Below are positions 5,736 to 31,493 of a stretch of DNA of 31,493 nucleotides, one piece after another; position 1 is the first letter of the stretch, and each line of letters begins with the position of its first letter. This stretch comes from a virus. The position numbers and the translations under genes were made by a program. Under the pieces are notes generated by a model that worked only from the letters and a program-made list of their open reading frames with translations, made no database searches and was not told the origin of the DNA. The stretch spans positions 1-31,493 of the IMG/VR virus record IMGVR_UViG_3300042449_002151. The stretch is one strand, 5' to 3'.

Positions 5736-5747
5736 AATTTATTGGCT

Positions 5748-5772
5748 AAAAAAAGGGGGGAGAACCCCCCTT
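5748..5772 (-). terminator. Strong intrinsic terminator after the tail sheath gene
   Basis: On the minus strand AAGGGGGG pairs with CCCCCCTT around a 4-nt loop, and the A/T end merges into a run of seven U residues. This is a textbook rho-independent terminator 8 nt after the sheath stop codon. Confidence 0.9.
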
Positions 5773-5779
5773 CTTATTA

Positions 5780-8700: not shown

Positions 8701-8995
8701 TTCTAGTTACAAACAATTGATTGGATTGTTGTAAATAAGATTTTGCGATATACGCAGCTTCATATTTAGGGATTTGAGTGTTAACAAACTTTGTAGGTTC
8801 AGTACCTCCAAAATACGCCTGAAACTCATCGTAATTAGTGATGAAAATAGGTTCAAAAGCTGGACCTTTTAGGGTTTCTCCAACTAAACCTAGAGTAGTT
8901 ACACCCACACTCTGTGCCACGAATGATAAATCCGTCTCGGATGTATATACACCGGGTGAAACGTAAACTTTTTGATTTGCTTGTGCTGTTGCCAT
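5780..8995 (-). CDS. Tail sheath protein, T4 gp18-like, with a large insertion
   Basis: The N-terminus VYVSPGVYTSETDLSF (about residues 10-25) followed by GLVGETLKGPAFEP is the typical start of contractile sheath subunits. The C-terminal 250 residues also fit: a W-G-N-K-T-L segment, a helix with NVRRLLLQARKLI, LDSVNPILDGIRRDRGL, and a final KALEFIDIEFFITPTGASF. The sheath forms hexameric rings around the tube and contracts to drive it through the envelope. At 1071 residues it is about 400 longer than T4 gp18 (659). The extra length lies mostly in residues 120-730, a Ser/Thr/Asn/Gly-rich, beta-looking region with little charge, which suggests added surface domains. Start ATG 8993-8995 has no Shine-Dalgarno. 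A strong terminator follows. Confidence 0.92.
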   Translation of the reverse strand: MATAQANQKVYVSPGVYTSETDLSFVAQSVGVTTLGLVGETLKGPAFEPIFITNYDEFQAYFGGTEPTKFVNTQIPKYEAAYIAKSYLQQSNQLFVTRILGLSGYDAGPSWSIKVTSNVDPLTIGLNPSAGASFTADFSGSSSGNTTSFIDPTDLPLPVQSALNTQYRLSDGSTSTLQSQINAYIQSVYDTPSSSAVTVNIFGAIPNADALAVELTYSAVTNPYSVDNTNLAYNDLSAGDNDSWYYANFTNYNDNSYSGYSFFFVVSNFSTGASESFSGTISGASYTFSGTAYPEFNNMVVATLRSRGISLFTNSSTSVNHGPVYEVSATTGVTLVCTEQYSGVTNNPYGTFLLSGVTKDSDTFSFEVNLLASSSKFITKVLGVDNFGKSRNEVPLFVEEIYATSLNEAYNQGLIRGVSCELIALPGARSQDSSSIAYNVQRYQAPETPFLVSELRGNKVYNLFKFISISDGDSANVEVKVSIANLSFNNMTFDVLVRNFFDTDANPVVIEKFTNCNMDPASNNFVAKKIGSSNGEYALISKYIMVEMADGAPIDALPCGFYGYTQREYANVLNPSPMIKYKTKYYYPGETIANPPFGAAAGGSNTVESSGDIIRRSYLGFSSQFGIDESFLSYKGRQTPSSWVLSATEVEGQKWNYLSKGFHMDSGATVVTISNSSLTSGQTAFECGSAEFRADPETQENPYYFIYSRKYTVCFAGGFDGWDIYREFRTNQDRFQLGASGYLAGASPSSRYPTATGEGLFKRITVQNNTTDFANTDYYAYLLGILTYQNPEATNINVFATGSIDYVNNSNLCEEAIDMIQYQRADSVYIVTTPDYQMYTPDSSNQFDVIYSQEAVDNLDNTGIDSNYTATYYPWILTRDTVNNTQIYLPPTGEVCRNLALTDNIAFPWFASAGYTRGLVNSIKARQKLTQEDRDTLYQGRINPIATFSDVGTVIWGNKTLQIADTALNRLNVRRLLLQARKLISAVAVRLLFEQNDQIVRQQFLDSVNPILDGIRRDRGLYDFRVTVSSSPEDLDRNTLTGKIYLKPTKALEFIDIEFFITPTGASFENI

Positions 8996-11537: not shown

Positions 11538-11541
11538 ATTG

Positions 11542-11548
11542 ATAAATA
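11542..11548 (-). promoter_or_regulatory. Late-promoter-like TATTTAT motif in a divergent gap
   Basis: TATTTAT on the minus strand, 4 nt ahead of the gp14-like ATG. The gap 11538-11580 also has to serve the plus-strand SET gene, for which the same bases read ATAAATA, 32 nt before its ATG. Confidence 0.38.
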
Positions 11549-11580
11549 CTTTACAGTTGATTATATTTAATCCAAAAATT

Positions 11581-11967
11581 ATGGTAATATATCCACCAAC
11601 TAAAATAAAACTTCAAAAAAGTAACACTCACGGGATTGGTGTTTTTTGTTCTAAACAAATATCGAGAGGTGAGATTATTGAACAATGTTCATTTTTGGTA
11701 ATTCAAAATCACAGAAATAAACCACTTCACGTTTTCATTGACCATGCATATGTTTGGCCAAAATCTGTCAATTGGAGAGAATATGTGTTAGTTATGGGAT
11801 ATGGTTCATTTTATAATCATTCTTCTGAACCTAATGTCGATTGGGTAACAAAAGAAAACGAAAATATTTTCGAATATTTTGCAATAAAAGATATCAAAGA
11901 AGGAGAAGAACTTTTTATTAATTATGGAATGGAGATAAATTTTCCAATCAAAAAACCGAATGGATAA
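11581..11967 (+). CDS. SET-domain protein, putative protein-lysine methyltransferase
   Basis: The 128-residue product is essentially a lone SET domain. THGIGVFCSKQISRGEIIE is the N-terminal SET strand with the AdoMet-binding G-x-G-V-F. GSFYNHSSEPNVDW contains the NHS-x-x-PN pseudoknot motif, and IKEGEELFINYG is the C-terminal G-E-E-L-x-x-x-Y-G motif with the catalytic Tyr. SET enzymes transfer methyl groups from AdoMet to lysine in proteins. The pre-SET and post-SET zinc motifs are absent, as in most bacterial and viral forms. I start at ATG 11581; a TTG 42 nt upstream would add 14 residues but is less likely. The gene overlaps the helicase gene by 8 nt, so the two are coupled. Confidence 0.85.
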   Translation: MVIYPPTKIKLQKSNTHGIGVFCSKQISRGEIIEQCSFLVIQNHRNKPLHVFIDHAYVWPKSVNWREYVLVMGYGSFYNHSSEPNVDWVTKENENIFEYFAIKDIKEGEELFINYGMEINFPIKKPNG

Positions 11968-13717
11968 AATAAGTTTAGAATCCAAAGCACTAATATTGTT
12001 GGAGTCCTATGATGGACCTAACAATTATTTGCTTGAACTAAAAAGAAAGTCACAAGTAAATAAAAAGTTTTACCCAACTAGGAGTCAATCTGAATATATA
12101 ATTAACAACCACGATAAAACCCCTAAGGTTGCCAAAAAGTGGATTATATTAGATTCATACTTTGCTCAAAAATTGGCAGATGACAAACTATACACGAACG
12201 TTCCCGAAAAAGTTTGGGTTGAAAAGTTATTAGCAGAAAAAGACAAGGCCTATCATATTTGGGGTAAAGTTTTTGAAACCGAACAACTCCACGACTTTTG
12301 GTTACCCAAAGCATCAATAATAAAAGACAATACAGTAAAAGATGTTGTAATTGATTATGAAAAATATTCAAAAAGACCTCCGTTAACTCATCAGAGAGAA
12401 GCTATCCAAAAATTAGTTGAAAATAAAAAATACATCTTGGCAGATGATATGGGTTTGGGAAAAACCACTTCAACAATAATTGCGGCTCTTGAATCTGGTG
12501 CAAAAAAAGTTTTAATCATTTGTCCGGCAACACTCAAAATAAATTGGAAGAGAGAGATTGAAAACTATTCTAACAAGTCAATTTATATTTGTGAAGGTAA
12601 AAATTTTGAAGGGAACCATGATTTTGTAATAATAAACTATGATATAATAAAGAATTTTCATGACACTAAAAAGAAAGATGATTCGCAAATTCTTAGGGCC
12701 AATTTTGATTTGGTGGTTATTGATGAAGCACACTATATCAAAAATGCTCAAGCTCAGAGAACCAAACTCATAAATGATATTGTAAAAAAAGTTGACAGGT
12801 TGTGGTTATTAACCGGTACACCAATGACATCAAGACCTATAGATTACTTCAACTTGTTGAGTTTGATTGATTCTCCTGTTGCTAAAAATTGGATGGCTTA
12901 TGTGATTAGATATTGTTCGGGTTATCAATTTAGAGTTGGTCCAAGAAAAGTTTGGAATGTAATGGGGGCCTCAAATTTAGAAGAATTAAGAGATAGAACA
13001 TCGAACCTTACCTTGAGAAGATTAAAAGAAGATGTTTTAGATTTACCTGATAAAATTATTACACCCGTATATCTGAGATTAAAATCTAAAGAATACGAAG
13101 AGGTTATGGGCGAGTATTATAATTGGTATGAAAAAAACCCTGAAGAATCTAAATCATTGACGGTACAATTTACCAAACTAACCAAGGTTAGGCAAATAAT
13201 TGCAGACGAAAAAATAAGTCAAACAATTGAATTGGCCGAAAATATTTTAGAACAAGATAAAAAGGTTATTATTTTTTGTAATTTCACAAACTCACTCAAT
13301 AAAATTACAGAGCACTTTGGAAAAACCGCAGTAAAACTTGATGGGTCTATGTCCAAACAAGAAAGACAATTTGCGGTAGACCAATTCCAAGAAAATGAAA
13401 AAGTTAAAGTTTTTGTTGGTAATATTAAAGCTGCTGGCGTGGGGATTACCTTAACATCTGCAGAAGCGGTTATCATGAACGACCTTTCATTTTTACCCTC
13501 AGACCACTCTCAAGCAGAAGACAGAGCATATAGATATGGTCAAAAAAATAATGTACTTGTATATTACCCAATTTTTGAAAATACAATCGAAGGAATAATT
13601 TACGACATATTAAATAACAAAAAACAAGTAATAGCAACCGTTATGGGTGACGTGTCAAATTCATCTGCCGATTACGTTGAAGAAATATTACAAAAAATAA
13701 ATGAAATGCGACATTAA
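11960..13717 (+). CDS. SNF2-family (SMARCAL1-like) helicase/ATPase
   Basis: The 585-residue protein has the full SF2/SNF2 motif set: motif Q/I region THQREAIQ then ADDMGLGKTT (Walker A Lys168), motif Ia IICPATL, motif II VIDEAH (255-258 DEAH), motif III WLLTGTP, then IIFCNF and DGSMSKQERQ, motif V AAGVGITLTSA and motif VI QAEDRAYRYGQ. The compact spacing without large insertions resembles the SMARCAL1/annealing-helicase and phage branch. Residues 1-140 are a helical N-terminal region I do not recognise. It probably remodels or reanneals forked DNA in replication and recombination, possibly in place of T4 UvsW. It overlaps the SET gene by 8 nt and lies 36 nt before the next gene. Confidence 0.9.
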   Translation: MDKISLESKALILLESYDGPNNYLLELKRKSQVNKKFYPTRSQSEYIINNHDKTPKVAKKWIILDSYFAQKLADDKLYTNVPEKVWVEKLLAEKDKAYHIWGKVFETEQLHDFWLPKASIIKDNTVKDVVIDYEKYSKRPPLTHQREAIQKLVENKKYILADDMGLGKTTSTIIAALESGAKKVLIICPATLKINWKREIENYSNKSIYICEGKNFEGNHDFVIINYDIIKNFHDTKKKDDSQILRANFDLVVIDEAHYIKNAQAQRTKLINDIVKKVDRLWLLTGTPMTSRPIDYFNLLSLIDSPVAKNWMAYVIRYCSGYQFRVGPRKVWNVMGASNLEELRDRTSNLTLRRLKEDVLDLPDKIITPVYLRLKSKEYEEVMGEYYNWYEKNPEESKSLTVQFTKLTKVRQIIADEKISQTIELAENILEQDKKVIIFCNFTNSLNKITEHFGKTAVKLDGSMSKQERQFAVDQFQENEKVKVFVGNIKAAGVGITLTSAEAVIMNDLSFLPSDHSQAEDRAYRYGQKNNVLVYYPIFENTIEGIIYDILNNKKQVIATVMGDVSNSSADYVEEILQKINEMRH

Positions 13718-13753: not shown

Positions 13754-15286
13754 ATGAAAAAAGTAGAAGAAAAAATTATACAACTCCAAAGCCAAATACT
13801 TGAAAGTAGAATTGAAACCGAAAAAGAGTTGTTACTAACAGAAATGAAAAAAATTGGAATAGAAAAACTTCCATATTCCTATTCAGCCTTGAAACCATTT
13901 ATCGATTCAGAGACAATGGATTTCCATTATAACAAACATTATAAAGGTTATGTAGATAAGTTGAACGACGCTTTATCTAAAAAGAAATATGGTGACTTAG
14001 AATTAGAACAAATTATTAAAAACATAAGTCGTTACGATAAATCAATAAGAAACAATGCGGGTGGGGCCTTCAACCACGCACTTTTTTGGAATATGCTTTC
14101 ACCCAAAACACAAAAGTTGACAGGTGAACTTTATAAAAAAATAACAAAGAAGTGGGGAACGTTTACCAACTTTAAAAAAGAATTTGAAACCGCAGCTAAA
14201 GACCGATTTGGTTCAGGATGGGTATGGTTAGTTTTAACCGCTAAGAACCAATTGAAAATTATGACTACTCCGAACCAAGACAATCCATTAATGAATATTA
14301 TTGATGGTGGTGGTTTTCCACTACTCGGTCTAGATTTATGGGAACATGCTTATTATCTGAAATACAGAAACAAGAGAGATGAATATATTTTAAATTTTTG
14401 GAAAGTAGTTAATTGGGATTTTGTTACCAAAATGTATGAATTAAGAACCCAAACGAAATTATTAGAATCCACAGAGTTTAGGAATGTTATTTCAGAACAA
14501 AAGACCGCAAATTTTTGTGACGCCAAAGAGATTGTATATTACAAAGAACTTTTGAATCCATATAAAAATAAAAAATTTTATGAAGAAGAGGTTAGAAAAA
14601 CATTGAAATCTGTATTTGGACAATTTTGGGTTGAGGAAACTAAAGATGAGATGTCCGGATTTTATGGAATAGAATCACCTGAAGGTAGGTCAATACTTAA
14701 TAACCTAAACAGCAATATTAATACTTTCTGTCTACTTGTTAAAGCCGTAAACAAAGAAATTGATAAAATCGGAAAATCAGATAAAAAGTTCGATTTCACG
14801 AAAAAAGAAAAGTCGAACATGAAAGAATTATCAAGATTTTTGAATGCTTTAGATTATTTCAAAACAAACATTTACACGAAAAAGAATCCTGATTTTGTAA
14901 ATATTGTAAACGTTCTTTTGATTTTGTGGGAAAGAGGGCAAAAAAGTGAAAGAAAAGTTGAAGAAAAACTACAAAATTATTTTGGCGAATCATCCAAAGT
15001 AACCAGATTTGGTAAACATGGGTCGAAAAAAGATGCTTTTGGCGGTGTAGATATTGTTATAAATTTAGATGGTGTTGATTACACCGGACAAATTAAACCT
15101 TTCAACACCACAAAAACTGATGGTGATGAAATTGCTGTATTAGGTAATGCAAACTACGCAGATTACAAAACTGATTGGTTATTGTTTCATAATACCAAAA
15201 CAGACCAGATACTTATATTTGAAAATAAACCTATAGGTAGAAAGTACGTTTTTAAATTAAACTCGTTACTCCACGAAATAGAATAA
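13754..15286 (+). CDS. Superoxide dismutase fused to a C-terminal nuclease-like domain
   Basis: Residues 40-230 are a complete Mn/Fe superoxide dismutase. The metal ligands are all present: H58 (in FHYNKHYKGYV), H108 (GGAFNHALFW), D194 and H198 (LDLWEHAYYLKYRN). The Gly-Gly-Ala-Phe before H108 and the N-Q-D (Q175) follow the MnSOD pattern rather than FeSOD. It would convert superoxide to peroxide and oxygen in the cytoplasm. Residues 1-38 are a charged helix. Residues 235-510 are not SOD. The end shows E399-E404 helix, then GGVDIVINLDG (D433) and GQIK (Q446, K448), which fits a variant PD-(D/E)XK nuclease core. I know of no family with this fusion. The first domain is certain, the second inferred. 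Confidence 0.85.
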   Translation: MKKVEEKIIQLQSQILESRIETEKELLLTEMKKIGIEKLPYSYSALKPFIDSETMDFHYNKHYKGYVDKLNDALSKKKYGDLELEQIIKNISRYDKSIRNNAGGAFNHALFWNMLSPKTQKLTGELYKKITKKWGTFTNFKKEFETAAKDRFGSGWVWLVLTAKNQLKIMTTPNQDNPLMNIIDGGGFPLLGLDLWEHAYYLKYRNKRDEYILNFWKVVNWDFVTKMYELRTQTKLLESTEFRNVISEQKTANFCDAKEIVYYKELLNPYKNKKFYEEEVRKTLKSVFGQFWVEETKDEMSGFYGIESPEGRSILNNLNSNINTFCLLVKAVNKEIDKIGKSDKKFDFTKKEKSNMKELSRFLNALDYFKTNIYTKKNPDFVNIVNVLLILWERGQKSERKVEEKLQNYFGESSKVTRFGKHGSKKDAFGGVDIVINLDGVDYTGQIKPFNTTKTDGDEIAVLGNANYADYKTDWLLFHNTKTDQILIFENKPIGRKYVFKLNSLLHEIE

Positions 15287-20020: not shown

Positions 20021-20040
20021 AACAATAAATATATTGTTAT
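20019..20040 (-). repeat. 22-nt inverted repeat covering stop of one gene and start of the next
   Basis: A 9-bp perfect inverted repeat (ATAACAATA and TATTGTTAT with a 4-nt loop) holds the TATTTAT motif, the TAA of the HtrL-GT2 gene and the first bases of the next gene's ATG. As RNA it would fold over the start codon of the 126-residue gene; as DNA it could be an operator. Confidence 0.5.
20025..20031 (-). promoter_or_regulatory. Late-promoter-like TATTTAT motif
   Basis: TATTTAT on the sense strand 4 nt ahead of the ATG at 20020, inside the 22-nt inverted repeat just described and overlapping the 16-nt gap after the upstream gene. Confidence 0.38.
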
Positions 20041-21707
20041 GACTCTTTACGAAGCGACCTATCGTAATGTTCGAATCTATCGTGTTCGGTAGGGGTAATT
20101 AAAAGTAAACCAGAAAATAATTCTCCCTTTTTAACGAGTTGGTACATATAACTCATCCAAGTTTGTTCAAACGGATGTGCCCAAGTTGTATCCAAAAACA
20201 TTTTCTTACTTCCTGGTTTGGTTACAACTTGTGGCCAGTTACAATAATAAACCTCACCTGTTGCATAAGGTATTTGTTTGTGAGACAAAATCTTATTGAA
20301 CTCTGTTTTAGGAGCGTTCGGGTCTAACCCAATTTGAGGTAATCTAGGTTTACCTGGCCAAAACTTAGACCTTACATCTTGTGGTACATTATACCAAGAC
20401 CATTGAGTCCCATTATCACCGAAAAATTCTGAGTAGTTTAATTTTAAAAAATCAAAATTTTCTTTTTTACTGATTTCCAAAGATTTTTGATATATGTTTT
20501 TGACATACCTATTGAATCCGTTTCTACAAATGGTTTCTTTTCCGTTATAAAAAAACATATCGTCTTCGAAAAAGAACATAAAATCATGCCCTGTGTTTTC
20601 AAAATGTTCGGCAATCCACTGTCTTCCCCCACAAATCCCTAAATTATCTTTTTTAATATGTTCAAAACCATGTTCATCACAAAGTTTCTGATATTCATCG
20701 AAAGTTGAATCATCAGTTGAATTATTTAAAAGATATTTTTTTGGTTTATTTAGAAAATCTGAATCATAATCTTGCATTGATTGAATCAAGGTACGGAATT
20801 GATTTGGACTGTTAAAAGTTATTACGTAAACACCGACGTTGTTTAAATCCAAGTTATTGTTCGAATTTACAACCGTCTCTGATTTAGTAATCAAATTATC
20901 ATTTTTCAAATCTTCGAAAAACTTTCCTATTAAACCATTACCCTCAATTTCAAAGTAATTTATAATGTCAGAATGTTTATAACACATTATTGAAAATATA
21001 GATTCTTCAGTTCCCATATAACCCTCGTCCAAAGTTGTTTTCAAAAGGCCGTAATAGATTCCATTTATCTCACCAATAGTATCTTTTGGCCCTCCAAAAA
21101 AACCCCCACGAGCAACTTTATTTACTTTTGCTCCCGCTAGTTCATTTAACCTATTATATTCAAAACCGTGAATTTCCTTTTCTGCACCATATGGGAAACA
21201 AATAAACGAAAACTTGGAGATATATTTTTCTAATTTATCTAAAACTTTATCATGAGTAAAATAACCAGGGTGTACTGTATTTGTTAAACCACCATCAATC
21301 CAAAACATGTATTGTGAATTGAATTTGTCCATAATCTTAGCGTCGTGAAGTAAAAAAACTTTAGACATTACTAAGGGGTTATACATCTCTAGTTTCGCTT
21401 GTGTAGAATCCTTTAACCACCCAACTTGATTGGTCCACTCTGTATCAGTTCTTATTTTTTGAATTTGATTATAAAATTCATTTTTGAACCACGACAAAGG
21501 ACGATTAATGAACTGAGTGTTTGATTTACTTCTTTTTTTAAAAACAAACTCTTCGAGTTCTTCTTCTCCAAAAATTATCAAATTAGCATCAACGTCTAAT
21601 AGCTTATCAAACTTTTCTAAATAATGAGAAAATGGTCTTGCCCATCCTTCAGACAATCCATCCCTCCCTATATTCCAAATTCCCGTAACTAAAGTTATAT
21701 TACTCAT
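20037..21707 (-). CDS. Two-domain glycosyltransferase: HtrL/YibB-like plus GT2-like
   Basis: Residues 1-265 belong to the HtrL/YibB (WlaTC-like) type: TLVTGIWNIGRDG at the start, YMFWIDGGLTN (135-143), a GGFFGG turn (201-206), and TEESIFSIM with the conserved acid pair near 235. Residues 290-556 are a GT-A fold: VGVYVITFNSPNQF as the nucleotide-binding strand, an LNNSTDDS turn, and MFFFEDDMFFYNG with the EDD (381-383) that acts as the DxD metal site. It likely transfers two sugars in sequence or one sugar with two acceptor steps. Acceptor and donor are unknown. It overlaps the upstream HtrL-like gene by 8 nt, so the glycosyltransferase genes form one coupled operon. Confidence 0.75.
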   Translation of the reverse strand: MSNITLVTGIWNIGRDGLSEGWARPFSHYLEKFDKLLDVDANLIIFGEEELEEFVFKKRSKSNTQFINRPLSWFKNEFYNQIQKIRTDTEWTNQVGWLKDSTQAKLEMYNPLVMSKVFLLHDAKIMDKFNSQYMFWIDGGLTNTVHPGYFTHDKVLDKLEKYISKFSFICFPYGAEKEIHGFEYNRLNELAGAKVNKVARGGFFGGPKDTIGEINGIYYGLLKTTLDEGYMGTEESIFSIMCYKHSDIINYFEIEGNGLIGKFFEDLKNDNLITKSETVVNSNNNLDLNNVGVYVITFNSPNQFRTLIQSMQDYDSDFLNKPKKYLLNNSTDDSTFDEYQKLCDEHGFEHIKKDNLGICGGRQWIAEHFENTGHDFMFFFEDDMFFYNGKETICRNGFNRYVKNIYQKSLEISKKENFDFLKLNYSEFFGDNGTQWSWYNVPQDVRSKFWPGKPRLPQIGLDPNAPKTEFNKILSHKQIPYATGEVYYCNWPQVVTKPGSKKMFLDTTWAHPFEQTWMSYMYQLVKKGELFSGLLLITPTEHDRFEHYDRSLRKES

Positions 21708-22581
21708 ATATTCTATTGAATTCTTCTAATATTCTATAAAAACTTTTATTTTCTTCAAACAATTTAGGATTTGTTCCTGGCGGACAATTGTCAGGACACC
21801 ACCAAATGTCAAAATGTTTTCTAACAAAAAGGTCTGGGTCGTTATGCCACATTACAGTCATGAGAACTTCTTCGTGATGTACCCTTTCTTCAGGAGTAAT
21901 CTTGTACGCATAATCTTCGAATAAAGTTACAACATCATCCCACAAATCTTTATGACCACCAAAGAGACCACCTATAACATGAATCTTTCTTTGATAATTT
22001 TTATACCATTTTGGGTTAACTGTACCTGACCAATAATTTCTATCGTTATCCTTTCCTAATATAAGAAACTTTCCTTCAGTGTCTTCGACTAAATTTTTAA
22101 GAAAATCATTGTTGAATAAATTACTTTCGTAGTATTTTCCTTGTGGATGGTCACTTCCTACTAAGTACTTATTAGGTATAAGTCCGCAATGTGATAAACC
22201 AGCATCAATCCAAAAATAATAATCGTAGGATTTATCCTCTAACCACCACCAACCAAACTTGGACCATTGAATTTCAATACATCTGTCCCCTGTTTTTGCG
22301 CTTTCATAATCTTTATATTTCAATAATAATTCTTGATATTTTGTTTGACGTAAATCAAAAACTTTGAATTCTAATTTTTGTGGTGAAACTCCGTGAGATT
22401 CATAAAAAAACCTTTGTAATCTTTCTATTTCTCTGTCAGAAGTATAACAAAGAAAATCTGCGTCGGTCATTTTCAAAAGTGATAATAAACTGTATTGATA
22501 ATGGCCTCCTCTTGATGGTCTTCCTCCAATTTCAGTCCCCGATAAATCACTATAAATGCAAGTAATAAATTTAACTTTCAT
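21700..22581 (-). CDS. HtrL/YibB-like glycosyltransferase
   Basis: This 293-residue protein resembles the first half of the neighbouring fusion: KFITCIYSDLSG at the start, an aromatic W-W-W-L segment, YYFWIDAGLSHCG (121-133, D126 as likely metal-binding acid), IGGLFGG (203-209) and HHEEVLMTVMWH (235-246). In bacteria these enzymes take part in LPS or capsule outer-core synthesis; the family is assigned to sugar transfer but few have tested donors. It overlaps both neighbours (8 nt and 11 nt). The pair with the fusion may have come from a duplication in the phage. Confidence 0.7.
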   Translation of the reverse strand: MKVKFITCIYSDLSGTEIGGRPSRGGHYQYSLLSLLKMTDADFLCYTSDREIERLQRFFYESHGVSPQKLEFKVFDLRQTKYQELLLKYKDYESAKTGDRCIEIQWSKFGWWWLEDKSYDYYFWIDAGLSHCGLIPNKYLVGSDHPQGKYYESNLFNNDFLKNLVEDTEGKFLILGKDNDRNYWSGTVNPKWYKNYQRKIHVIGGLFGGHKDLWDDVVTLFEDYAYKITPEERVHHEEVLMTVMWHNDPDLFVRKHFDIWWCPDNCPPGTNPKLFEENKSFYRILEEFNRIYE

Positions 22582-23302
22582 ATGTGTATTCTATATGTTG
22601 ATTTGATTTTTTTAATTGAGACATACTGTTAAAATCATAACAATTATTTGGAACTTTAACTGGTGAATACAAATTCCAATTATATGTCTGTGCATAGTAA
22701 TTATTATAGTTACCACCTGAAACATCAGACCAACCTGATTGTTGTGGTCCAATTGGTAGTATTGGACAATAACTTTGATGCTTTGACATTATTTCTCTAT
22801 AAATGTAATCATCGATGGCATAATAACCTTCTTTCCAAGGTTCGGTCATTTCCAGAACTCTATCATAGATTGAATGATGGTACATAATCATATTTGTGGC
22901 AAAAATACCACGTTCATGTTCTTTAGCGGGTGGTAAATTTGTTAGGTCTATCAATAAAGGATATTTTTCACTTCTGTTGACAGGTCTAGCAAGTGTTGGA
23001 GCAAGGTTAAAAACACCCCACTCAAACTCACCGATTTCTTCAATTTGTTTAATCAAAGATTTAGCATAAGGCATTATTACACAATCGTCTTCTATTACTA
23101 AAATACTTTCATACCCTTTTTCTTTTGCTTCTTTGATTAAAGTGGTATGTGAACGAGTACACCCAACATGACTGTTTGTATCAACCGCTCTAAAATGTTC
23201 GTAATCCCAACCAATGTATTCCATTTCTTTAACAATGGATTCTAATCTGTCGGGTCTTCTTTCAAGATTTACTACGAACTTTGGTATTGAATTGAATTTC
23301 AT
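22571..23302 (-). CDS. Glycosyltransferase family 25-like
   Basis: The 243-residue protein has the GT25 pattern: FVVNLERRPDRLESI at residues 9-23, then FRAVD, GCTRSHTTLIKEAKEKGYES at 47-66 (the G-C-x-x-S-H motif), and VIEDD (EDD at 71-73). GT25 includes bacterial LPS galactosyltransferases and the eukaryotic procollagen galactosyltransferases. Its C-terminal part (from about 170) is shorter and Tyr/Asn-rich. The gene starts one base into the stop of the GT60-like gene (TAATG) and ends overlapping the HtrL-like gene by 11 nt. Confidence 0.82.
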   Translation of the reverse strand: MKFNSIPKFVVNLERRPDRLESIVKEMEYIGWDYEHFRAVDTNSHVGCTRSHTTLIKEAKEKGYESILVIEDDCVIMPYAKSLIKQIEEIGEFEWGVFNLAPTLARPVNRSEKYPLLIDLTNLPPAKEHERGIFATNMIMYHHSIYDRVLEMTEPWKEGYYAIDDYIYREIMSKHQSYCPILPIGPQQSGWSDVSGGNYNNYYAQTYNWNLYSPVKVPNNCYDFNSMSQLKKSNQHIEYTYES

Positions 23303-24567
23303 TAACTTACGTGATTGTGGTTTAGTTGTCCTGTAATTCTATCACACCACCCTTTAGATTCGGAGTGTGGCCAAACCACCCAATACTTTGGTAAAACATC
23401 CGTTTGAAACTCTCTCCATATTTTACAATATTTATCAGGGTCTCTGAAGTATCCAGCAATTTCATTTTTATCAGAATCTTTCCTATATATAGTTTCATCA
23501 TTTGGACCATGGAATGCTACCACCCAAAAGTCATAATCCTTTTCAGGTACTTGAGAATATCCAATATCAATACAATGTTTGTAAACGGAGGCAAAATCTT
23601 TTTTCCAATCCTCTTCTGTTTCGTAATTGTAAGGGTTAGGAGGATAATTTTTATCCAAAGTATATTTTTGAACCGCTCTTTTTTCAAATAATAACCCAGA
23701 GTACTTTTCATAATCTCTTAAAGTTCTTACAGAACCAAACCCATAAGGACCGTCATGGCCTTCTTGAGTTTCTCCATCCATACCAAAGAGTTTTCTATTT
23801 GTTAAATGTGAATGTTTGTTTTTGTCACCCCAAGTTCTATCATCGTCCCACTGTTTTGTTCTACCCTTACGTGTATACTCATGATATACCACAGGTATGT
23901 GTGGATGGAATAAATCATATCCCCAAGTGTAAGCCCTTGCCGCAATTGATATTTCTTCACCGTGGAAATAATATTCAGGATTGTGTTGAACTTCTTTTGA
24001 AAACTCTCCCAAGGTAAAACAGAAGTGTGCGGAATAAAACCTAGCAGTAACAGGTTTTGTCATTTCTCTCCAGCCTGGAATTGTTTCAGGTAAGAAAAAC
24101 ACTGCACCTTCAGGAATAAATCTATCAAAAACCATTCTCCACGCATCCTGTGCTCTTCCCGCAGGGTCATTATCAGGGTCAAAGGAGGGTACATAACCCG
24201 TAAGTAGAGGTTTTTTATACCCATCCTTTTGAAGACCCTTTATCATTTTGATTAGGATGTCGTCCCAATCTTTTACAAATCTCATATGTGAATCAATTTG
24301 TAGTGTATAACTTTCACCACTATATAGTTGTTGAACTTGATGTCTCGCCCAACAAACTCCTTTGGCTTCCTGATATGGTATATCTAAAATTTTAAATCTT
24401 TTATCTTTTCTGAACTCGTCTAAATTATCAAAACCGTCGGTTTCGGAATATTGTCTTGCAATACCTAAAACCAAGTTTTTTGGTTTTTTTGCATTTTCCA
24501 ACATATTTTTTATGGTTGTTAGAAGTTGTGGGTCACGATAAGATGCAATCTGAACAAATATTTTCAT
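23302..24567 (-). CDS. Glycosyltransferase of the GT60/Skp1 GlcNAc-transferase type
   Basis: The 421-residue protein begins IFVQIASYRDPQLLTTI, contains a G-V-C-W-A-R-H segment, and LQIDSHMRFVKDWD (89-102, D-x-H as metal site), the hallmark of the GlcNAc family. Further on are FCFTLGEF and FHGEEISIAARAYTWGYDLF, also conserved there. In Dictyostelium the founder adds GlcNAc to a hydroxyproline of Skp1, and polypeptide GlcNAc-transferases of this type start O-glycans. The bacterial and phage members are not well characterised. The first gene of the glycosyltransferase operon, it lies after the terminator of the 24645 gene and has no TATTTAT motif of its own. A polypeptide acceptor such as the nearby fibres is inference. 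Confidence 0.82.
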   Translation of the reverse strand: MKIFVQIASYRDPQLLTTIKNMLENAKKPKNLVLGIARQYSETDGFDNLDEFRKDKRFKILDIPYQEAKGVCWARHQVQQLYSGESYTLQIDSHMRFVKDWDDILIKMIKGLQKDGYKKPLLTGYVPSFDPDNDPAGRAQDAWRMVFDRFIPEGAVFFLPETIPGWREMTKPVTARFYSAHFCFTLGEFSKEVQHNPEYYFHGEEISIAARAYTWGYDLFHPHIPVVYHEYTRKGRTKQWDDDRTWGDKNKHSHLTNRKLFGMDGETQEGHDGPYGFGSVRTLRDYEKYSGLLFEKRAVQKYTLDKNYPPNPYNYETEEDWKKDFASVYKHCIDIGYSQVPEKDYDFWVVAFHGPNDETIYRKDSDKNEIAGYFRDPDKYCKIWREFQTDVLPKYWVVWPHSESKGWCDRITGQLNHNHVS

Positions 24568-24585: not shown

Positions 24586-24618
24586 AAAATAAAAAACCCT
24601 CCACGAAAGTAGAGGGTT
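24586..24618 (-). terminator. Intrinsic terminator after the 24645 gene
   Basis: On the minus strand AACCCTC pairs with GAGGGTT around a 10-nt loop (two further pairs possible inside), followed by six U and a second U-rich run. It lies 26 nt after the stop of the small gene and 18 nt before the glycosyltransferase operon, so the operon needs read-through or an unrecognised promoter. Confidence 0.85.
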
Positions 24619-24644: not shown

Positions 24645-24860
24645 TTATGATTCGGGCGGAAAAACTCCTTCGTCTGTTAATACTATGGATGTATCAAAAG
24701 CTTCTGCCACTGTGTAAGTACCATCTATTAACCAAATTGTTTTAGTTTGGTCTGAAGATAAGGGCACTTGATATTCCCAAAGAGCATCATCACATCTTTG
24801 ATAACTGAAATTAACTTCAGTTTCTCCTGTGTTCGTTAAAATATATTTACTACATGCCAT
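24645..24860 (-). CDS. Small protein, paralogue of the N-terminal domain of the mucin-like protein
   Basis: The 71-residue product MACSKYILTNTGETEVNFSY... is over half identical, by eye, to residues 1-70 of the protein at 24901: C-S-K-x-I-L-T-N-T-G, then N-F-x-Y-Q-R-C, ALW-x-YQVPLS, QTKTIW-x-IDGTY and a final EGEFPP/EGVFPPES. The whole protein is just that domain. Two Cys (3 and 23) are conserved in both copies. It is unknown in function; the domain looks like a small beta unit, perhaps for anchoring or oligomerisation. It has its own TATTTAT 15 nt ahead and its own terminator. Confidence 0.75.
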   Translation of the reverse strand: MACSKYILTNTGETEVNFSYQRCDDALWEYQVPLSSDQTKTIWLIDGTYTVAEAFDTSIVLTDEGVFPPES

Positions 24861-24900: not shown

Positions 24901-26463
24901 TTATGATGGTGTTGGTGTAGAAGTTGGTGTTTCAGTAGGAGTAGATGTTAAAGTTTCAGTTGGTGTGGAAGTTGGTGTTTCAGTAGGAGTTGGTGTCTCA
25001 GTTTCAGTAGGAGTAGATGTTAAAGTTTCGGTAGGTGTAGAAGTTGGTGTTTCAGTAGGAGTAGATGTTAAAGTTTCGGTAGGTGTAGAAGTTGGTGTTT
25101 CAGTAGGAGTGGATGTTAAAGTTTCAGTTGGGGTAGGAGTTGGTGTCTCAGTTTCAGTAGGAGTAGATGTTAAAGTTTCAGTAGGTGTAGAAGTTGGTGT
25201 TTCAGTAGGAGTTGTGGTTGGTGTAGAAGTCGGCGTTGGAGTCACCTCACATAACTCAATTGAATCGATATATCCTGTTCCTCCTGTTATCACATATACA
25301 TTTGTTCCATCTGAATAATATCCATCTGATGCATAAAACGCAGGGTCTGCAGCATAATCAGTGTAAATATGGTCTCCAACTATCAAAGATTCGCCAGGTA
25401 TTTGATAATAATCAGTTGCGATATTAGTACAAGCCTCGTTAGGGTCTGTAAAACTATAACCCAAAGGTACTATTGTTGGATTGTGTAACGATGGGTCTGT
25501 GCAAGTCCCTATATAGCTTATAGAACCGTCACCTGAAAGTACAATTGCGCTATCGTAGTTACCACAATAGATTGCACTCCAAGATGGAACACCATTCATT
25601 TGAATTGTGTTACCCGAACAATCTAAAAATTCAAATAAAGGTGCTGCTGGTCCATTATATGAAAAAGATATTTCCGAACAACTCTCAACTATATCTGTTG
25701 GAGTAGGTGTATTTGTTGGGGTTTGTGTTGCAGTTTCAGAAGGTGTAACCGTTGGTGTTGATGTAGGTGTTTCAGTTGGTGTTGATGTAGGTGTTTCTGT
25801 CATTGTTGGTGTTGGAGTTGGTGTAGGTCCACAATTTCCATAAGTAACAATTGTTGCTCCTGTGACACAACCAACTCCACATCCACCGTTCAAATAATAT
25901 ATAACATTATCTTCTACATAATAACCAATTGGGTCACCTGTGTTAGGCCCAACTAGGTCAGTCCATGCTAATGTAGAATTTGCAAAACTTGTTCCATTAA
26001 CAAATATTGACGCCACTTGTTGACAATCACAGGCTTCTTGAGCTGTATTTTCGTTATGACAAATATTAAACAATTGTGTTCTCACAACATTTGTTGGTGT
26101 TGGAGTTTGTGTGGGAGTGGAAGTTGGAGTTTCAGTGTTAGTTGGTGTTGATGTAATTGTCGGAGTTTGGGTATTACTTGGAGTTATAGAAGGGGTTGGG
26201 GTGTTAGATGGTGTTGGAGTTGGGGTGACAGAAGACGGTGTTGGTGATGGTTCTGCCGGTGGAAACTCACCTTCGTCAACCAACGAAACTGAAAATTCAA
26301 ATGATTCTGAAATTTGATACGTACCATCAATAACCCATATTGTTTTAGTTTGTCCTATAGATAGAGGTACCTGATATACCCAAAGAGCATCGGAACACCT
26401 TTGATAATTAAAATTAATTTCTGTACTACCGGTATTTGTTAAAATGAATTTACTACAAGACAT
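24901..26463 (-). CDS. Mucin-like Thr/Pro/Ser-rich repeat protein with globular domains
   Basis: The start is ATG 26461-26463, [10 protein letters not shown], because it matches the paralogue at 24645; an ATG 11 codons upstream would add a run of Lys and is unlikely. The 520 residues comprise an N-terminal domain (1-69), a T/P/S linker (70-127), a Cys-rich globular domain (128-212, six Cys), a second linker (213-258), a larger globular region (259-405, with several Cys and a Tyr/Asp-rich half) and a T/P/S/E tail (406-520) made of 16-residue repeats ([16 protein letters not shown]). Such tails are O-glycosylation-prone and extended. There is no signal peptide. It lies between the collagen-like fibre block and the glycosyltransferase operon, so it is a likely virion surface protein and a likely acceptor. 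Confidence 0.78.
24904..25242 (-). repeat. 48-bp tandem repeats encoding the T/P/S tail
   Basis: Near-identical 48-bp units (16 codons, [16 protein letters not shown] and variants) repeat through this stretch in frame. Units differ by synonymous changes and small in-frame insertions. Tail length is likely to vary between relatives. Confidence 0.8.
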
Positions 26464-26476
26464 CTTTTTTTTATTA

Positions 26477-26483
26477 ATAAATA
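26477..26483 (-). promoter_or_regulatory. Late-promoter-like TATTTAT motif
   Basis: TATTTAT on the sense strand 13 nt ahead of the mucin-like gene's ATG at 26463. Its position inside the longer open frame supports the shorter start. Confidence 0.4.
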
Positions 26484-26516
26484 CAACCAAAAACAAAAAA
26501 AAGTTTACTAAATATA

Positions 26517-27809
26517 TTAAAGATTGAACGGGTGACCTATTGTTACAGGTCGAGGTAATTTAATATCACCGAAAGATAAATAACCTTGCCATTCATTTTC
26601 AGGACCACCAGAGTCAATTTCAACACGAACAGTAAAGTTATTCGGGCCCCACGCACTCAAATCGAACTCAGCTTGAAATCCACCAGCAGCACTTGGAAAT
26701 GTTAATAAACAGTCGTATCTAATTGTTGTATCTATTTCGGATGTTGCAGTACCATTTTCATCAAAAACAGACATTGATTGTCTTGTAGCTGTTCCAGTAC
26801 CTGTCCCTAAAGCCATTCTATCTGGTGTTGTTGATGTACCTGCAGCACTTTGAGTTCTTAATGCTCCCATACTTGAAACTCCTCTCAAATAAAAAGGTAA
26901 TCCCGTAATTGCTGCCGTACGTCCTGAATCTTGTCTTATGGTGTAAGACCCCACTTGCCATCCTCCTCCTTTTATTGCCATGTAAATATATCTTCTATTT
27001 GTAGTTCCTCTTGCAATCCAGTTTAATGTAAAAAGGTCTGTACCAAATGCCGTCAATTGAGCTCTAGCATTAGGATTTCCTCCTGCGACAACAATCATAG
27101 CTAAACATTCTCCTGCTCTTGAGTATCCTACTGTATCCATTGTTGCTGAACCATCATCTGAGTTGCCCAAAACTACAATATTATTAGCCGTAGCAGTTCC
27201 ACTTGCAAATCCGACACAAAAACCAGAATCGTTTGCTTGACCAGTATTTAGAGCTGCTGTGGATTGAACTCCCGCAATCATGACAACTTGGTCATTTGTT
27301 ATCACGGAACTGAATCCTGTTGCTGTGTAGTTTTGGTTACCTGTCGCTGCTGGCTCCGCAATATCTCCTATTGTCACATATGCAATATCATCACCACCCC
27401 AAACCTCATAAAAAATTGTTAAGTTAGCAGGTGTTGCATCATCTACTATTAAAGTGAATCCATCACTATCAAAACTACTCACATCTAATTTTCCATCAAT
27501 TGTACCCGTACCATTTACCGTAATGACTACACAATCATTAGCAGCAACAGAACCACAATCAGAATCTGCAACGTTATCGGCACTAAATGTCCCTACGGAA
27601 CGTCTTACTGTTGCCGATGATGCAAATCCAATACCTCTTCTTTCAGACACTGCTTGAGATGCGAGAGCTGTTGGTGAGTTGGATTGAATGCCCATCCAAT
27701 AAAATCTTATTGCACGCGGAGGAAAACCAAGACCTGAAATTACTTTTGTTGAATTTAACGCGTCTGTAGTTAACCACTGAATTGAACCGAAATTGAAAAG
27801 TAATGACAT
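26517..27809 (-). CDS. Three-repeat beta-domain virion protein, likely fibre or adhesin
   Basis: The 430-residue product is Gly/Ser/Thr/Ala-rich with low charge and no signal peptide. It contains three copies of a domain of about 130 residues (about 25-165, 165-300, 305-430). Each has a G-x-G/GFASG-T-A-type strand, an acidic Asn/Asp turn, a D/T-x-x-Y-x-x-C segment, then an A-x-x-L/F strand, an F-T-x-x-x strand and a closing Y-x-x-G strand. Examples are FASSATVRRSVG, GFASGTATANNI and GTGTGTATRQSM. It starts one base after the stop of the collagen-like gene (TAA-T-ATG), so the two are coupled and the product may attach to the fibre. No known family recognised. Confidence 0.72.
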   Translation of the reverse strand: MSLLFNFGSIQWLTTDALNSTKVISGLGFPPRAIRFYWMGIQSNSPTALASQAVSERRGIGFASSATVRRSVGTFSADNVADSDCGSVAANDCVVITVNGTGTIDGKLDVSSFDSDGFTLIVDDATPANLTIFYEVWGGDDIAYVTIGDIAEPAATGNQNYTATGFSSVITNDQVVMIAGVQSTAALNTGQANDSGFCVGFASGTATANNIVVLGNSDDGSATMDTVGYSRAGECLAMIVVAGGNPNARAQLTAFGTDLFTLNWIARGTTNRRYIYMAIKGGGWQVGSYTIRQDSGRTAAITGLPFYLRGVSSMGALRTQSAAGTSTTPDRMALGTGTGTATRQSMSVFDENGTATSEIDTTIRYDCLLTFPSAAGGFQAEFDLSAWGPNNFTVRVEIDSGGPENEWQGYLSFGDIKLPRPVTIGHPFNL

Positions 27810-27810
27810 A

Positions 27811-30800
27811 TTATACTCTTGTATAAGTTATTCTTATTGATAATAATTCTGCCGTTGCAGCTAATGTGTCGCCAGCAGCTGCCGGATTCCTATATGCTCT
27901 GAATTGAACAAAGTTACCTGCGGCTGGTGTTCCTCCTATTGTAATTGCGGCAGTTGCCGAGGATATGTTTACATCATCATTTGCTTGGTTGGCGTCTGTA
28001 ACTTCTTGAGCAGTACCAAAAGCTTGGTCTAACACATCACCATCAGCATAAGCCCGCGCCTGCAATCCCCAAACTACAGAGTTTGTTGATACATTACCTG
28101 CTACCCAATAAAATACTGCAGTTATTGTCCCACCATTATAATCTGAAGGCATCGGTAACGACCAGTTGGCGTATGTTGTTGTTGCACCATCCAAAAATCC
28201 TAAGTAGTAAAAATTGACTTGGTTGGTTGTTGTCTGTGTTAAAGTTGGTGGTTGACATCCGTTTGTCAAAGAAGGCCATCCACCCGCACCTGTCAAAATA
28301 ATTTGTCCTGTCGGAGGAGGTCCTTGAGCTCCTTGAGCCCCTTGAGGTCCTTGTGGTCCTATCGCGCCTTGTGCACCTATCGCACCCTGAGCACCTATTG
28401 CTCCTTGAGCACCTGTGGCACCTTGAGGACCTACCGCACCTTGTTCACCTGTTGCACCTTGTGGCCCAACTGCTCCTTGGGCTCCTATTGCTCCTTGAGC
28501 ACCTGTGGCCCCTTGAGGTCCCTGTGGCCCTACCGCACCTTGTGCTCCTGTTGCACCTTGTGGACCAACTGCTCCTTGGGCTCCTATTGCTCCTTGAGCA
28601 CCTGTGGCACCTTGAGGACCTACCGCACCTTGTGCTCCTGTTGCACCTTGTGCTCCTGTTGGACCTTGTGGCCCTACCGCACCTTGTGCACCTGTTGCTC
28701 CTTGAGCACCTGTTGCTCCTTGAGCACCTGTTGGTCCTTGTGGCCCTACCGCACCTTGAGCACCTGTTGGACCTTGTGGCCCTACCGCACCTTGAGCTCC
28801 TTGTGGACCTACTGCTCCTTGAGCACCTTGAGGTCCTTGCGGCCCTACTGCACCTTGGGCTCCTGTTGCTCCTTGTGGTCCTACTGCACCTTGAGCACCT
28901 GTGGCTCCTTGAGGACCTACCGCACCTTGAGCTCCTTGTGGACCTTGTGGTCCTACTGCTCCTTGAGCACCTTGAGGTCCTTGCGGCCCTACTGCACCTT
29001 GGGCTCCTGTTGCTCCTTGAGCACCTGTTGGTCCTTGTGGTCCTACTGCACCTTGAGCTCCTGTGGCTCCTTGAGGACCTACCGCACCTTGAGCTCCTGT
29101 GGCACCTTGTGGCCCAACTGCTCCTTGTGCTCCTGTTGCACCTTGTGGCCCAACTGCTCCTTGAGCACCTGTGGCACCTTGAGGACCTACCGCACCTTGT
29201 GCTCCTGTTGCACCTTGTGCTCCTGTTGGACCTTGTGGACCTAATGCTCCAGATGTTCCACTTGTACCTGAACTACCAGCGGCACCTTGTGCTCCTTGAG
29301 GTCCTGTTGCTCCCTGTGCACCTGTTGGACCTTGTGGTCCTACCGCACCTTGAGCTCCTTGTGGACCTTGTGGTCCTACCGCACCTTGAGCTCCTTGTGG
29401 ACCTTGTGGTCCTACCGCGCCTTGTGCACCTGTTGGACCTTGTGGACCTACCGCGCCTTGTGCACCTGTTGGACCTTGTGGACCTAATGCACCAGATGTT
29501 CCACTTGTACCTGAACTGCCAGCGGCACCTTGTGCACCTTGAGGTCCTACTGCACCTTGTGCTCCTGTTGCACCTTGTGCTCCTGTTGGACCTTGTGGAC
29601 CTACGGCACCTTGTGCTCCAGTAGCACCTTGTGCACCTTGAGGTCCTACTGCACCTTGTGCTCCTGTTGCACCTTGTGCTCCTGTTGGACCTTGTGGACC
29701 TACGGCACCTTGTGCGCCAGTAGCTCCTTGGGCTCCTTGAGGACCTTGTGGTCCTTGTGGACCTACCGCGCCTTGTGCACCTGTTGGACCTTGTGGACCT
29801 ACCGCACCTTGTGCACCTTGAGGTCCTTGTGGGCCTAATGCACCAGATGTTCCACTTGTACCTGAACTGCCAGCGGCACCTTGTGCACCTTGAGGTCCTA
29901 CTGCTCCTTGGGCTCCCTGAGGTCCTTGTGGACCTACCGCTCCTTGTGCTCCTGTTGCTCCTTGTGCTCCCTGAGGTCCTTGTGGACCTACCGCTCCTTG
30001 TGCTCCCTGAGGTCCTTGTGGACCTACCGTACCTTGTGCTCCTGTTGCTCCTTGGGCACCTGTTGGACCTTGTGGCCCTACTGCTCCTTGTGCACCTTGA
30101 GGACCTAATGCTCCAGATGTTCCACTTGTACCTGAACTACCAGCGGCACCTTGTGCTCCTTGAGGTCCTGTTGCTCCCTGTGCACCTGTAGCTCCTTGGG
30201 CTCCTTGAGGTCCTGTTGCACCTTGTGCTCCCGTTGCTCCTTGTGCTCCTTGAGGTCCTGTTGCTCCCTGTGCACCTGTCGCTCCTTGGGCTCCTTGAGG
30301 TCCTGTTGCACCTTGTGCTCCCGTTGCTCCTTGGGCTCCTTGAGGTCCTGTTGCACCTTGTGCTCCCGTTGCTCCTTGTGCTCCTTGAGGTCCTAAAGCT
30401 CCTGATGTTCCTGACGAACCAGTTCTTCCTGAAGAACCTGATGTACCACTTGTTCCTGTTGTACCGCTAGTACCACTAGTACCGCTAGTACCTGTTGTTC
30501 CTGATGAGCCAGATGTTCCACTTGTACCTGAACTACCAGAAGCTCCTTGCGCTCCCTGAGGTCCTGTTGCACCTTGTGCTCCCTGAGGTCCTGTAGCGCC
30601 TTGGGCTCCTTGTGGACCTAATGCTCCAGATGTTCCGCTTGTTCCTGAAGTACCAGCAGCACCTTGTGCTCCCTGAGGTCCTTGTGGACCTACCGCACCT
30701 TGTGCTCCCTGAGGTCCTTGTGGGCCTAATGCTCCAGATGTTCCACTAGTTCCTGTAGTACCGCTAGTACCTGTTGTTCCTGAAGAACCAGATGTTCCAC

Positions 30801-31493
30801 TTGTTCCTGTAGTACCACTAGTACCTGTTGTTCCTGAAGAGCCAGATGTTCCGCTAGTTCCTGTAGTACCACTAGTACCTGTTGTTCCTGAAGAGCCAGA
30901 TGTTCCGCTAGTTCCTGTAGTACCGCTAGTACCTGATGTTCCTGACGAACCAGTTCTTCCTGAAGAACCAGATGTACCACTAGTTCCTGTAGTACCGCTA
31001 GTACCTGTTGTTCCTGAAGAACCAGATGTTCCACTTGTTCCTGTAGTACCGCTAGTACCTGTTGTTCCTGAAGAACCAGATGTTCCACTTGTTCCTGTAG
31101 TACCACTAGTACCTGTTGTTCCTGAAGAGCCAGATGTTCCGCTAGTTCCTGTAGTACCGCTAGTACCTGATGTTCCTGACGAACCAGTTCTTCCTGAAGA
31201 GCCAGATGTTCCGCTAGTTCCTGTAGTACCGCTAGTACCTGTTGTTCCTGAAGAACCAGATGTTCCGCTAGTTCCTGTAGTACCACTAGTACCTGTTGTT
31301 CCTGAAGAGCCAGATGTTCCGCTAGTTCCTGTAGTACCACTAGTACCTGTTGTTCCTGAAGAACCAGATGTTCCGCTAGTTCCTGTAGTACCACTAGTAC
31401 CTGTTGTTCCTGAAGAGCCAGATGTTCCGCTAGTTCCTGTAGTACCACTAGTACCTGTTGTTCCTGAAGAGCCAGATGTTCCGCTAGTACCTG
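27811..31493 (-). CDS. Giant collagen-like (Gly-X-Y) virion fibre, N-terminus outside window
   Basis: One minus-strand frame is open from the right edge to the stop at 27811, at least 1227 codons, and the start lies beyond 31493. It is a Gly-X-Y protein. The right third (30733-31493) is a Thr/Ser type ([15 protein letters not shown]), the middle an Ala/Gln/Pro/Val type ([18 protein letters not shown]) broken by [14 protein letters not shown] spacers, then [12 protein letters not shown] joins a C-terminal domain of about 165 residues (27811-28310). That end domain is beta-rich, with [27 protein letters not shown] and a final RITYTRV, and is likely the trimerising or receptor-binding tip. Collagen-like triple helices form tail or head fibres in many phages. 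It has almost no charged residues, apart from a few Arg. It is coupled to the next gene. Plus-strand open frames here are artefacts. Confidence 0.88.
28303..30732 (-). repeat. Gly-X-Y coding repeat, Ala/Gln/Pro type
   Basis: Nine-base-period coding repeats (GGN CCA CAA, GGN GCA CAA and relatives) run through this stretch. A higher-order unit of roughly 250-350 bp is marked by [14 protein letters not shown] spacers at about 29232, 29485, 29837, 30105, 30390 and 30622. Synonymous differences show that units have diverged unevenly, with some near-identical pairs (for example 29530-29600 and 29640-29710). Confidence 0.8.
30733..31493 (-). repeat. 54-bp tandem repeat, Thr/Ser Gly-X-Y type
   Basis: About a dozen 54-bp units (18 codons, six Gly-X-Y triplets) follow each other to the right edge and probably continue. 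Variants with an extra Arg-containing segment (GRTGSSGTS) occur near 30955 and 31190 and once before, near 30425. Copies are almost identical, which points to recent expansion or gene conversion. Confidence 0.88.

Follow-up and report, generated by a model that had tools for sequence, protein, structure and literature searches.

Why would a phage encode a very long collagen-like fibre almost devoid of charge, and why should a set of glycosyltransferase genes stand on the same strand beyond it? The question arises from the IMG/VR virus record IMGVR_UViG_3300042449_002151, a linear record of 31,493 bases that is probably a fragment and that was analysed over its whole length (hereafter the window). 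Its minus strand encodes a collagen-like protein at 27811-31491 and, further downstream, a mucin-like protein and glycosyltransferases headed by an enzyme of the GT60 type. The answer towards which we lean is that of a T4-like phage with a long trimeric collagen fibre, which O-glycosylates its own Thr/Ser-rich fibres by means of this GT60-type set; it builds on what the DNA displays, namely the sequence, the gene order, the protein families, a catalytic motif, the predicted fold of the fibre tip and a statistical linkage between genes. Phages with collagen-like fibres are already known, and so, rarely, are phage glycoproteins. That genes of a family of polypeptide O-glycosyltransferases are linked to genes for fibre-type proteins rich in Thr/Ser was not reported in any title or abstract opening listed by searches of an open-licence library, and the recurrence of this link provides a directly testable acceptor.

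The collagen-like stalk and its C-terminal domain

The gene consists of two parts:

28315-31491, minus strand: collagen-like stalk of 353 uninterrupted Gly-X-Y triplets, with the N-terminus beyond the contig end
27811-28314, minus strand: C-terminal domain of 167 residues plus stop, a predicted jelly roll with relatives in other viral loci

A preliminary description of the window, made from the letters alone, had counted at least 1227 Gly-X-Y codons. The single open frame stands (1226 residues without a stop, its 5' end cut by the contig end), but Gly-X-Y covers only 353 triplets, or 1059 residues, and is followed by 167 non-collagenous residues. The Pfam Collagen family (PF01391) matches the frame 24 times, always above cut-off, and the other five frames across the repeat region hold 31 to 49 stops each whereas the collagen frame has none, so that chance is no explanation; the reading of the gene as a collagen-like fibre is near certain. 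As had been stated, the repeat is almost uncharged (no Lys, no Asp, one Glu and three Arg in 1059 residues) and its Pro lies at X (79 residues) rather than at Y (one). Position X is further occupied by Ala 158, Thr 89, Ser 23, Arg 3 and Glu 1, and position Y by Gln 138, Ser 86, Thr 76, Val 35, Leu 7, Ala 5 and Ile 5; Thr and Ser make up 274 of the 1059 residues. At a rise of about 0.29 nm per residue, usual for the collagen triple helix, the stalk would measure about 300 nm if fully triple-helical.

The 54-bp units of the preliminary description were recovered (31183-31493, period 54, 5.8 copies, 96% matches), and both of its repeat types are present, although not as two clean blocks: the first 84 triplets contain only Thr/Ser apart from a few Arg, and further on short Thr/Ser islands are interleaved with the Ala/Gln/Pro part. 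Codon usage differs for Thr (ACT in 44 of 117 codons in Thr/Ser triplets versus 2 of 48 elsewhere, Fisher p 2.8e-6) but not for the two main Gly codons, used alike in both triplet types; separate expansions thus agree with the Thr codons and sit less well with the interleaving seen here and the mixing seen in relatives. Copy number is uncertain, since short-read assemblies of such repeats may be collapsed, and a search of the viral contig collection for the missing 5' end, with 52 bases of the 54-bp repeat as query, gave no exact match. The NCBIfam models NF038329 and NF038330 (streptococcal SclA/SclB) exceed their cut-offs on the repeat alone; an adhesin of that type was rejected because the C-terminus is globular and carries no LPXTG anchor. 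A scan of 20 window proteins gave no match to a prolyl hydroxylase family, and together with the nearby GT60-type enzyme this lends real weight to the earlier suggestion that stability comes from glycans rather than hydroxyproline. An oxygenase-like neighbour in one related locus (L180), considered as a candidate for prolyl hydroxylation, was dropped when Pfam gave no family.

The C-terminal domain, proposed earlier as the receptor tip, is modelled as a confident jelly roll (predicted local distance difference test score, pLDDT, 91.6). The best solved structures are carbohydrate-binding modules (CBMs) of the CBM36, CBM6 and CBM35 types, with 7ay3 at the top (Z 12.6, rmsd 2.7, 123 aligned residues), a likeness at the level of the fold only, given 8% identity; Eph-receptor ligand-binding and Cry-toxin domains, which share the same type of sandwich, score nearly as high. 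Among viral models, the collagen proteins of Catovirus and Klosneuvirus match it with TM scores of 0.71 and 0.69. The model suggests sugar binding and is compatible with a receptor-binding tip. The domain recurs in 20 related viral loci (the alignment omits the near-copies L011 and L015, as well as L025 and L028), where the stalk ahead of it ranges from 0 to 723 triplets; the full-length proteins that resemble fibres and end in this domain measure, for example, between 987 and 3195 residues. Two relatives with a domain 91% identical to that of the window illustrate this range: L009 has 723 triplets, mostly GTS/GSS/GAN, in 3195 residues with a non-collagen head and middle, whereas in L010, a protein of 987 residues, the one long run counts 84 triplets. 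In L014, L016 and L018 (79-81% identical) there is no collagen in that protein. To judge from these sequences, the domain is modular, with a conserved tip and a stalk that varies in kind and length. The relatives L009, L010, L013 and L017 start with non-collagen domains whose PHROG matches, in those scanned, are of unknown function or absent.

The full-length relatives bear out the description as a fibre, as do the tail genes of the window. Besides the tail sheath it encodes a baseplate protein of the T4 type, a tube-like protein and a DNA polymerase of family B, and the phage is therefore a T4-like myovirus, probably a large one. The T4-like tail genes matched PF17482 (27.0 bits, cut-off 26.9) and PF12322 (above cut-off), with PF06841 below cut-off, and contigs carrying close relatives of the GT60-type gene reach 326 kb. 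The sheath protein is matched in 2366 phage records, including Flavobacterium phages and Microcystis phage Mel-JY01, and the DNA polymerase is closest to those of Salinibacter and cyanobacterial phages, at less than 30% identity. The virus is a large freshwater-type virus of bacteria, for which Bacteroidota as host is only a guess, and the collagen-like gene most likely encodes a tail fibre stalk. The sheath protein itself (5780-8995) has 1071 residues, of which other phage sheaths match at most 68% of the length among the matches listed; this partial coverage points to inserted domains.

The GT60-type enzyme and its Thr/Ser-rich neighbours

Downstream of the fibre gene the minus strand carries the following features:

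26517-27809, minus strand: 430-residue protein with no assigned function, starting 1 nt after the collagen stop
24901-26496, minus strand: mucin-like protein rich in Pro/Thr/Ser (phrog_15511) and, as proposed here, the second acceptor of O-glycosylation
24645-24860, minus strand (coordinates hand-counted): 71-residue copy of the mucin-like N-terminal domain without repeats, just before the terminator
24595-24618, minus strand: intrinsic terminator-like hairpin, before the glycosyltransferase genes
23302-24567, minus strand: GT60-type (PF11397) glycosyltransferase with a DxH motif, proposed initiating polypeptide O-glycosyltransferase
22571-23302, minus strand: GT25 family glycosyltransferase (PF01755), its start overlapping the GT60 stop
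21700-22581, minus strand: 293-residue protein without family match, by eye HtrL_YibB-type glycosyltransferase-like
20037-21707, minus strand: protein of 556 residues and two domains, HtrL_YibB followed by a glycosyltransferase-like half; its gene is a conserved companion of that for the GT60-type enzyme

The last four genes overlap at their ends. The 430-residue gene stays with the C-terminal domain of the fibre, which it follows in relatives (L205-L208); an AlphaFold model of its product was discarded (pLDDT 35.6).

The GT60-type enzyme matches PF11397, which we take to be CAZy family GT60, with 224.6 bits (cut-off 21, E 3e-66). A DxH motif replaces DxD in 179 of the 180 glycosyltransferase proteins examined, the bacterial ones included, and D92-S93-H94 is invariant in all 13 aligned enzymes, an alignment from which L150 was omitted for a stop within the stretch; a PDB sequence search with the window enzyme returned no homologous chain. 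Polypeptide Ser/Thr O-glycosylation with DxH in place of DxD is described as common to GT60 and GT27 (PMC7185993), the Trypanosoma cruzi enzyme as transferring alpha-GlcNAc onto mucin Thr (PMC3769586), and GT60 as including both this mucin Thr GlcNAc-transferase and the Skp1 hydroxyproline GlcNAc-transferase (PMC6939170). By family and motif, the window enzyme is proposed to start polypeptide O-glycosylation on Thr/Ser.

Relatives of this enzyme are encoded by 366 viral contigs, of which 80 were examined; with all 73 and all 17 loci from searches seeded by its distant homologues, and four more (two phage records, an additional locus and the window itself), the count came to 174 loci, 104 of them with 4 kb on both sides. 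The clade of the window (at least 80% enzyme identity) comprises 82 loci, 71 with at least 1 kb upstream. Genes were called as longest open frames rather than by a gene finder, and the threshold for a Thr/Ser-rich gene was fixed after the first loci had been inspected. All 71 clade loci have a same-strand Thr/Ser-rich gene within 4 kb upstream (mucin-like only in 56, mucin and collagen in 13, mucin and another type in one, collagen only in one), and the six clade loci that lack one have less than 760 bp upstream. With 4 kb on both sides, the clade shows such a gene upstream in 43 of 43 loci and downstream in one of 43; across all clades the figures are 69 and 6 of the 104 loci, and with one vote per 90% cluster 29 and 4 of 55 (sign test p 1.6e-6). 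In a test by gene rank that took a single locus from each 70% cluster, 13 of 64 genes at upstream ranks 1-2 are Thr/Ser-rich, and ranks 4-8 have 11 of 221 (p 0.0004); with 90% dereplication rank 1 is Thr/Ser-rich in 28 of 71 cases upstream versus one of 69 downstream. Enzyme and Thr/Ser-rich gene are thus strongly linked within the clade, and moderately so outside it. In one clade member, L029 (enzyme 84% identical), a GSS/GTS collagen stands directly upstream of the enzyme in place of the mucin, and the same record holds a relative of the window fibre (L013). An HtrL_YibB protein, from a family of unknown function, is encoded together with the GT60-type enzyme in 79 of the 82 loci of the clade and in 17 of the 18 at 55-80% identity; among more distant viral loci the figure is 16 of 74, and among bacterial ones 4 of 6.

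In bacteria the enzyme is rare: within the order searched, 2 genomes out of 396 have a strong match, and the genome collection gave six loci, homologues being found in Saprospiraceae metagenome-assembled genomes (MAGs). A mucin-like gene adjoins the enzyme on three bacterial chromosomes (L213, L214, L217). In the Saprospiraceae and Bacteroidia MAGs the divergent neighbour encodes a Pro/Thr/Ser-rich protein, the Saprospiraceae one with a Por_Secre_tail secretion domain, and in the Gemmatimonadota MAG a protein with a Pro/Thr/Ser tail stops 24 bases ahead of the enzyme; in all three the HtrL_YibB partner lies downstream, with 64, 59 and 44% identity, respectively, to that of the window. Among bacterial loci with upstream sequence and about 50% identity or more, three of five have the Thr/Ser-rich neighbour; L215 is cut off upstream, and the distant L218 (29%) lacks it. 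Two further observations concern these loci: the Pro/Thr/Ser-tailed protein upstream of the enzyme in L217 (6591-7475) has an N-terminal part that is PqqD-like by eye, and the GT60-type gene of L246 (G202:C1:896000-909000) lies in a cluster that by eye resembles a bacteriocin exporter operon.

Collagens are common in the related phages. Of the 18 clade contigs above 100 kb, 16 were searched after two near-copies of L048 had been set aside, and 14 gave collagen matches. GTS and GSS triplets predominate in these collagens. In most of the stretches fetched, Thr or Ser occupies 73 to 96% of the X and Y positions; where Ala/Gln triplets occur as well, which is the case in the window (39%), the share is 21 to 50%. 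The viral collagens in a published table are charge-rich (PMC3368898), unlike that of the window. Thr/Ser collagens without a PF11397 match in the same record were met in L009, L010, L012 and L019, all of them fragments.

Elsewhere in the window, 13754-15286 encodes iron/manganese superoxide dismutase domains fused to about 280 residues without family match, and a SET-domain protein (11539-11967) directly precedes an SNF2-type helicase (11960-13717), both unusual phage cargo.

A proposed pathway and its alternatives

It is proposed that the collagen-like repeat would form the stalk of a long trimeric tail fibre, and that the C-terminal jelly roll may trimerise the fibre, bind a sugar on the host, or do both. 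From the GT60-type enzyme, Thr/Ser of the neighbouring mucin-like protein and those of collagen stalks rich in these residues would receive a first sugar, GlcNAc by analogy; extension or variation of the glycan would fall to the GT25, 293-residue and HtrL_YibB/GT2-like proteins. Such sugars may stiffen and solubilise an uncharged, hydroxyproline-free stalk, and may shield it from proteases or from premature sticking. We infer glycosylation of the phage's own fibres from family function, gene order and precedents (BclA3/SgtA, the T. cruzi mucins and the XacN1 glycoproteins); the place of the fibre in the virion, its trimeric state, the collagen as acceptor and the nature and role of the sugar are likewise putative. 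The data suggest that such viruses coat their fibres with sugars much as animal-cell mucins are coated. If so, mucin-type O-glycosylation would be placed in phages and bacteria, an uncharged collagen without hydroxyproline could be understood as a stalk, and a function would be suggested for HtrL_YibB. More tentatively, a widespread group of aquatic phages of large size might share with some few bacteria (Saprospiraceae-type, Gemmatimonadota) a GT60-started mucin-type O-glycosylation in which Pro/Thr/Ser mucins and GTS-GSS collagens are interchangeable acceptors, HtrL_YibB is a pathway enzyme and glycosylated fibres of several hundred nm form a virion glycocalyx.

Several observations weigh against own-fibre glycosylation. 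The linkage weakens outside the clade, with 10 of 26 clusters at 70% upstream versus 3 of 26 downstream (sign test p 0.065) and 5 versus 1 of 10 at 60%, and the usual neighbour is a mucin-like gene, a collagen lying within 4 kb upstream in only 14 of the 71 clade loci. A terminator-like hairpin separates acceptor and glycosyltransferase genes in 50 of 52 distinct clade spacers, so the two are not simply co-transcribed. The bacterial loci L216 and L246 carry the enzyme without a Thr/Ser-rich neighbour, as do Xanthomonas phage XacN1 and its nearer relatives; a collagen was not found in the two searched records of that group, XacN1 included, and XacN1 is reported to show no fibres (PMC5852040). 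A recombinant E. coli prophage collagen is reported as not glycosylated (PMC3368898). Finally, the complete Microcystis phage Mel-JY01 has a Thr/Ser-rich collagen and no PF11397 match, which shows that such a collagen does not need PF11397.

The Mel-JY01 collagen (L273, PP395634.1, 2-3049) is a plus-strand frame of 1016 residues, mostly annotated as two minus-strand hypothetical proteins. Downstream of it, with two genes between, 4750-8430 encodes a protein of 1226 residues, annotated as 'methyltransferase FkbM', whose C-terminal end is an O-heptosyltransferase domain of the TibC type (TIGR04414, 317 bits against a cut-off of 200; PDB TibC, E 2e-69). TibC is described as glycosylating an adhesin encoded in its own operon (PMC3835316), and the arrangement in Mel-JY01 is suggestive. 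Relatives of the TibC-type gene (L275-L354) occur in 300 viral contigs, including the one with L017 and L030. A general association with Thr/Ser-rich genes, sought in 80 of these 300 loci, was rejected: at 90%, with 52 representatives, ranks 1-2 gave 14 of 192 and ranks 4-8 18 of 235 (p 1.0), and at 70%, with 26 representatives, 10 of 96 and 10 of 133 (p 0.48). Mel-JY01 thus remains a single example.

Part of this counter-evidence would fit another explanation, in which the tail fibre is an ordinary collagen-like one and the adjoining glycosyltransferases act on the O-antigen or capsule of the host to prevent superinfection, their adjacency reflecting a shared host-recognition region. Phage glycosyltransferases are mostly read as acting on host lipopolysaccharide or on phage DNA (PMC7029224, PMC7824862), and a host-surface role is the published reading both for those of a pelagimyophage host-recognition cluster (PMC7029224) and for those of jumbo cyanophages (PMC7824862); the fading of the link in distant phages and the terminator between the genes speak for it as well. 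The characterised members of the enzyme's family act on polypeptides, however, the Thr/Ser-rich neighbour lies on the 5' side with its peak at the first upstream rank, and the link recurs on bacterial chromosomes with the same partner enzyme and no tail-fibre region seen there, which leaves a host-surface role rather unlikely. That the enzymes modify hypermodified phage DNA, the fibre being unrelated, is quite improbable: the C-terminal half of the 556-residue protein does match phrog_842, 'beta-glucosyl-HMC-alpha-glucosyltransferase' (E 9e-6), and its bacterial homologue weakly matches a TET-Associated Glycosyltransferase below cut-off (E 0.0037), but a scan of 20 window proteins revealed neither a hydroxymethylase nor any other enzyme that modifies bases, and the GT60-type and HtrL_YibB pair adjoins mucin-like proteins in bacterial chromosomes. 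An assembly artefact or decaying repeat at the contig end is scarcely credible, for although the contig ends inside the repeat and the 52-base search found nothing, 353 triplets run without stop, frameshift or break in the Gly register, the C-terminal domain and the following gene are conserved in relatives, and similar long repeats occur in many contigs.

Comparison with known systems

Glycosylation of the phage's own fibres would combine traits known from separate systems. The prophage protein EPclP of pathogenic E. coli, proposed as a trimeric side-tail protein, shares with the window fibre a Gly-X-Y stalk, Pro at X rather than Y and globular flanks, and differs in its charge (Asp/Glu 36% at X and Arg/Lys 31% at Y, against one Glu and three Arg in 353 triplets), as described in PMC3368898; the window fibre is set apart by its abundant Thr, Ser and Gln and by the adjoining glycosyltransferases. 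To our knowledge, SgtA of Clostridioides difficile bears no relation to PF11397. Encoded beside the collagen-like BclA3, SgtA is reported to transfer GlcNAc onto BclA3 Thr, and the pair resembles the window in joining a collagen-like protein with repeat Thr to a neighbouring glycosyltransferase gene; unlike the phage system, BclA3 is a bacterial spore protein and the GlcNAc is beta-linked (PMC7157674).

Among protein glycosyltransferases, the T. cruzi polypeptide alpha-GlcNAc-transferase and the Skp1 enzyme Gnt1 share family and DxH motif with the window enzyme (PMC3769586, PMC6939170, PMC7185993), and the mucin-like Thr-rich acceptor of the former is a further likeness (PMC3769586). These enzymes are eukaryotic, whereas the type found here belongs to phages and a few bacteria and has a Thr/Ser-rich gene as neighbour in place of a Golgi system. 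Among isolated phages, the jumbo phage XacN1 has an enzyme (ORF334) 47% identical to that of the window and is reported from proteomics to contain at least two glycoproteins (PMC5852040), its record differing from the window in the absence of a collagen match and of a Thr/Ser-rich neighbour. Mycobacteriophage virions carry glycans on capsid and tail tube subunits (Freeman 2023, via PMC12619734), so that structural proteins are modified there too, in that account not on fibres with mucin or collagen repeats such as those that the GT60-type set of the window is proposed to glycosylate.

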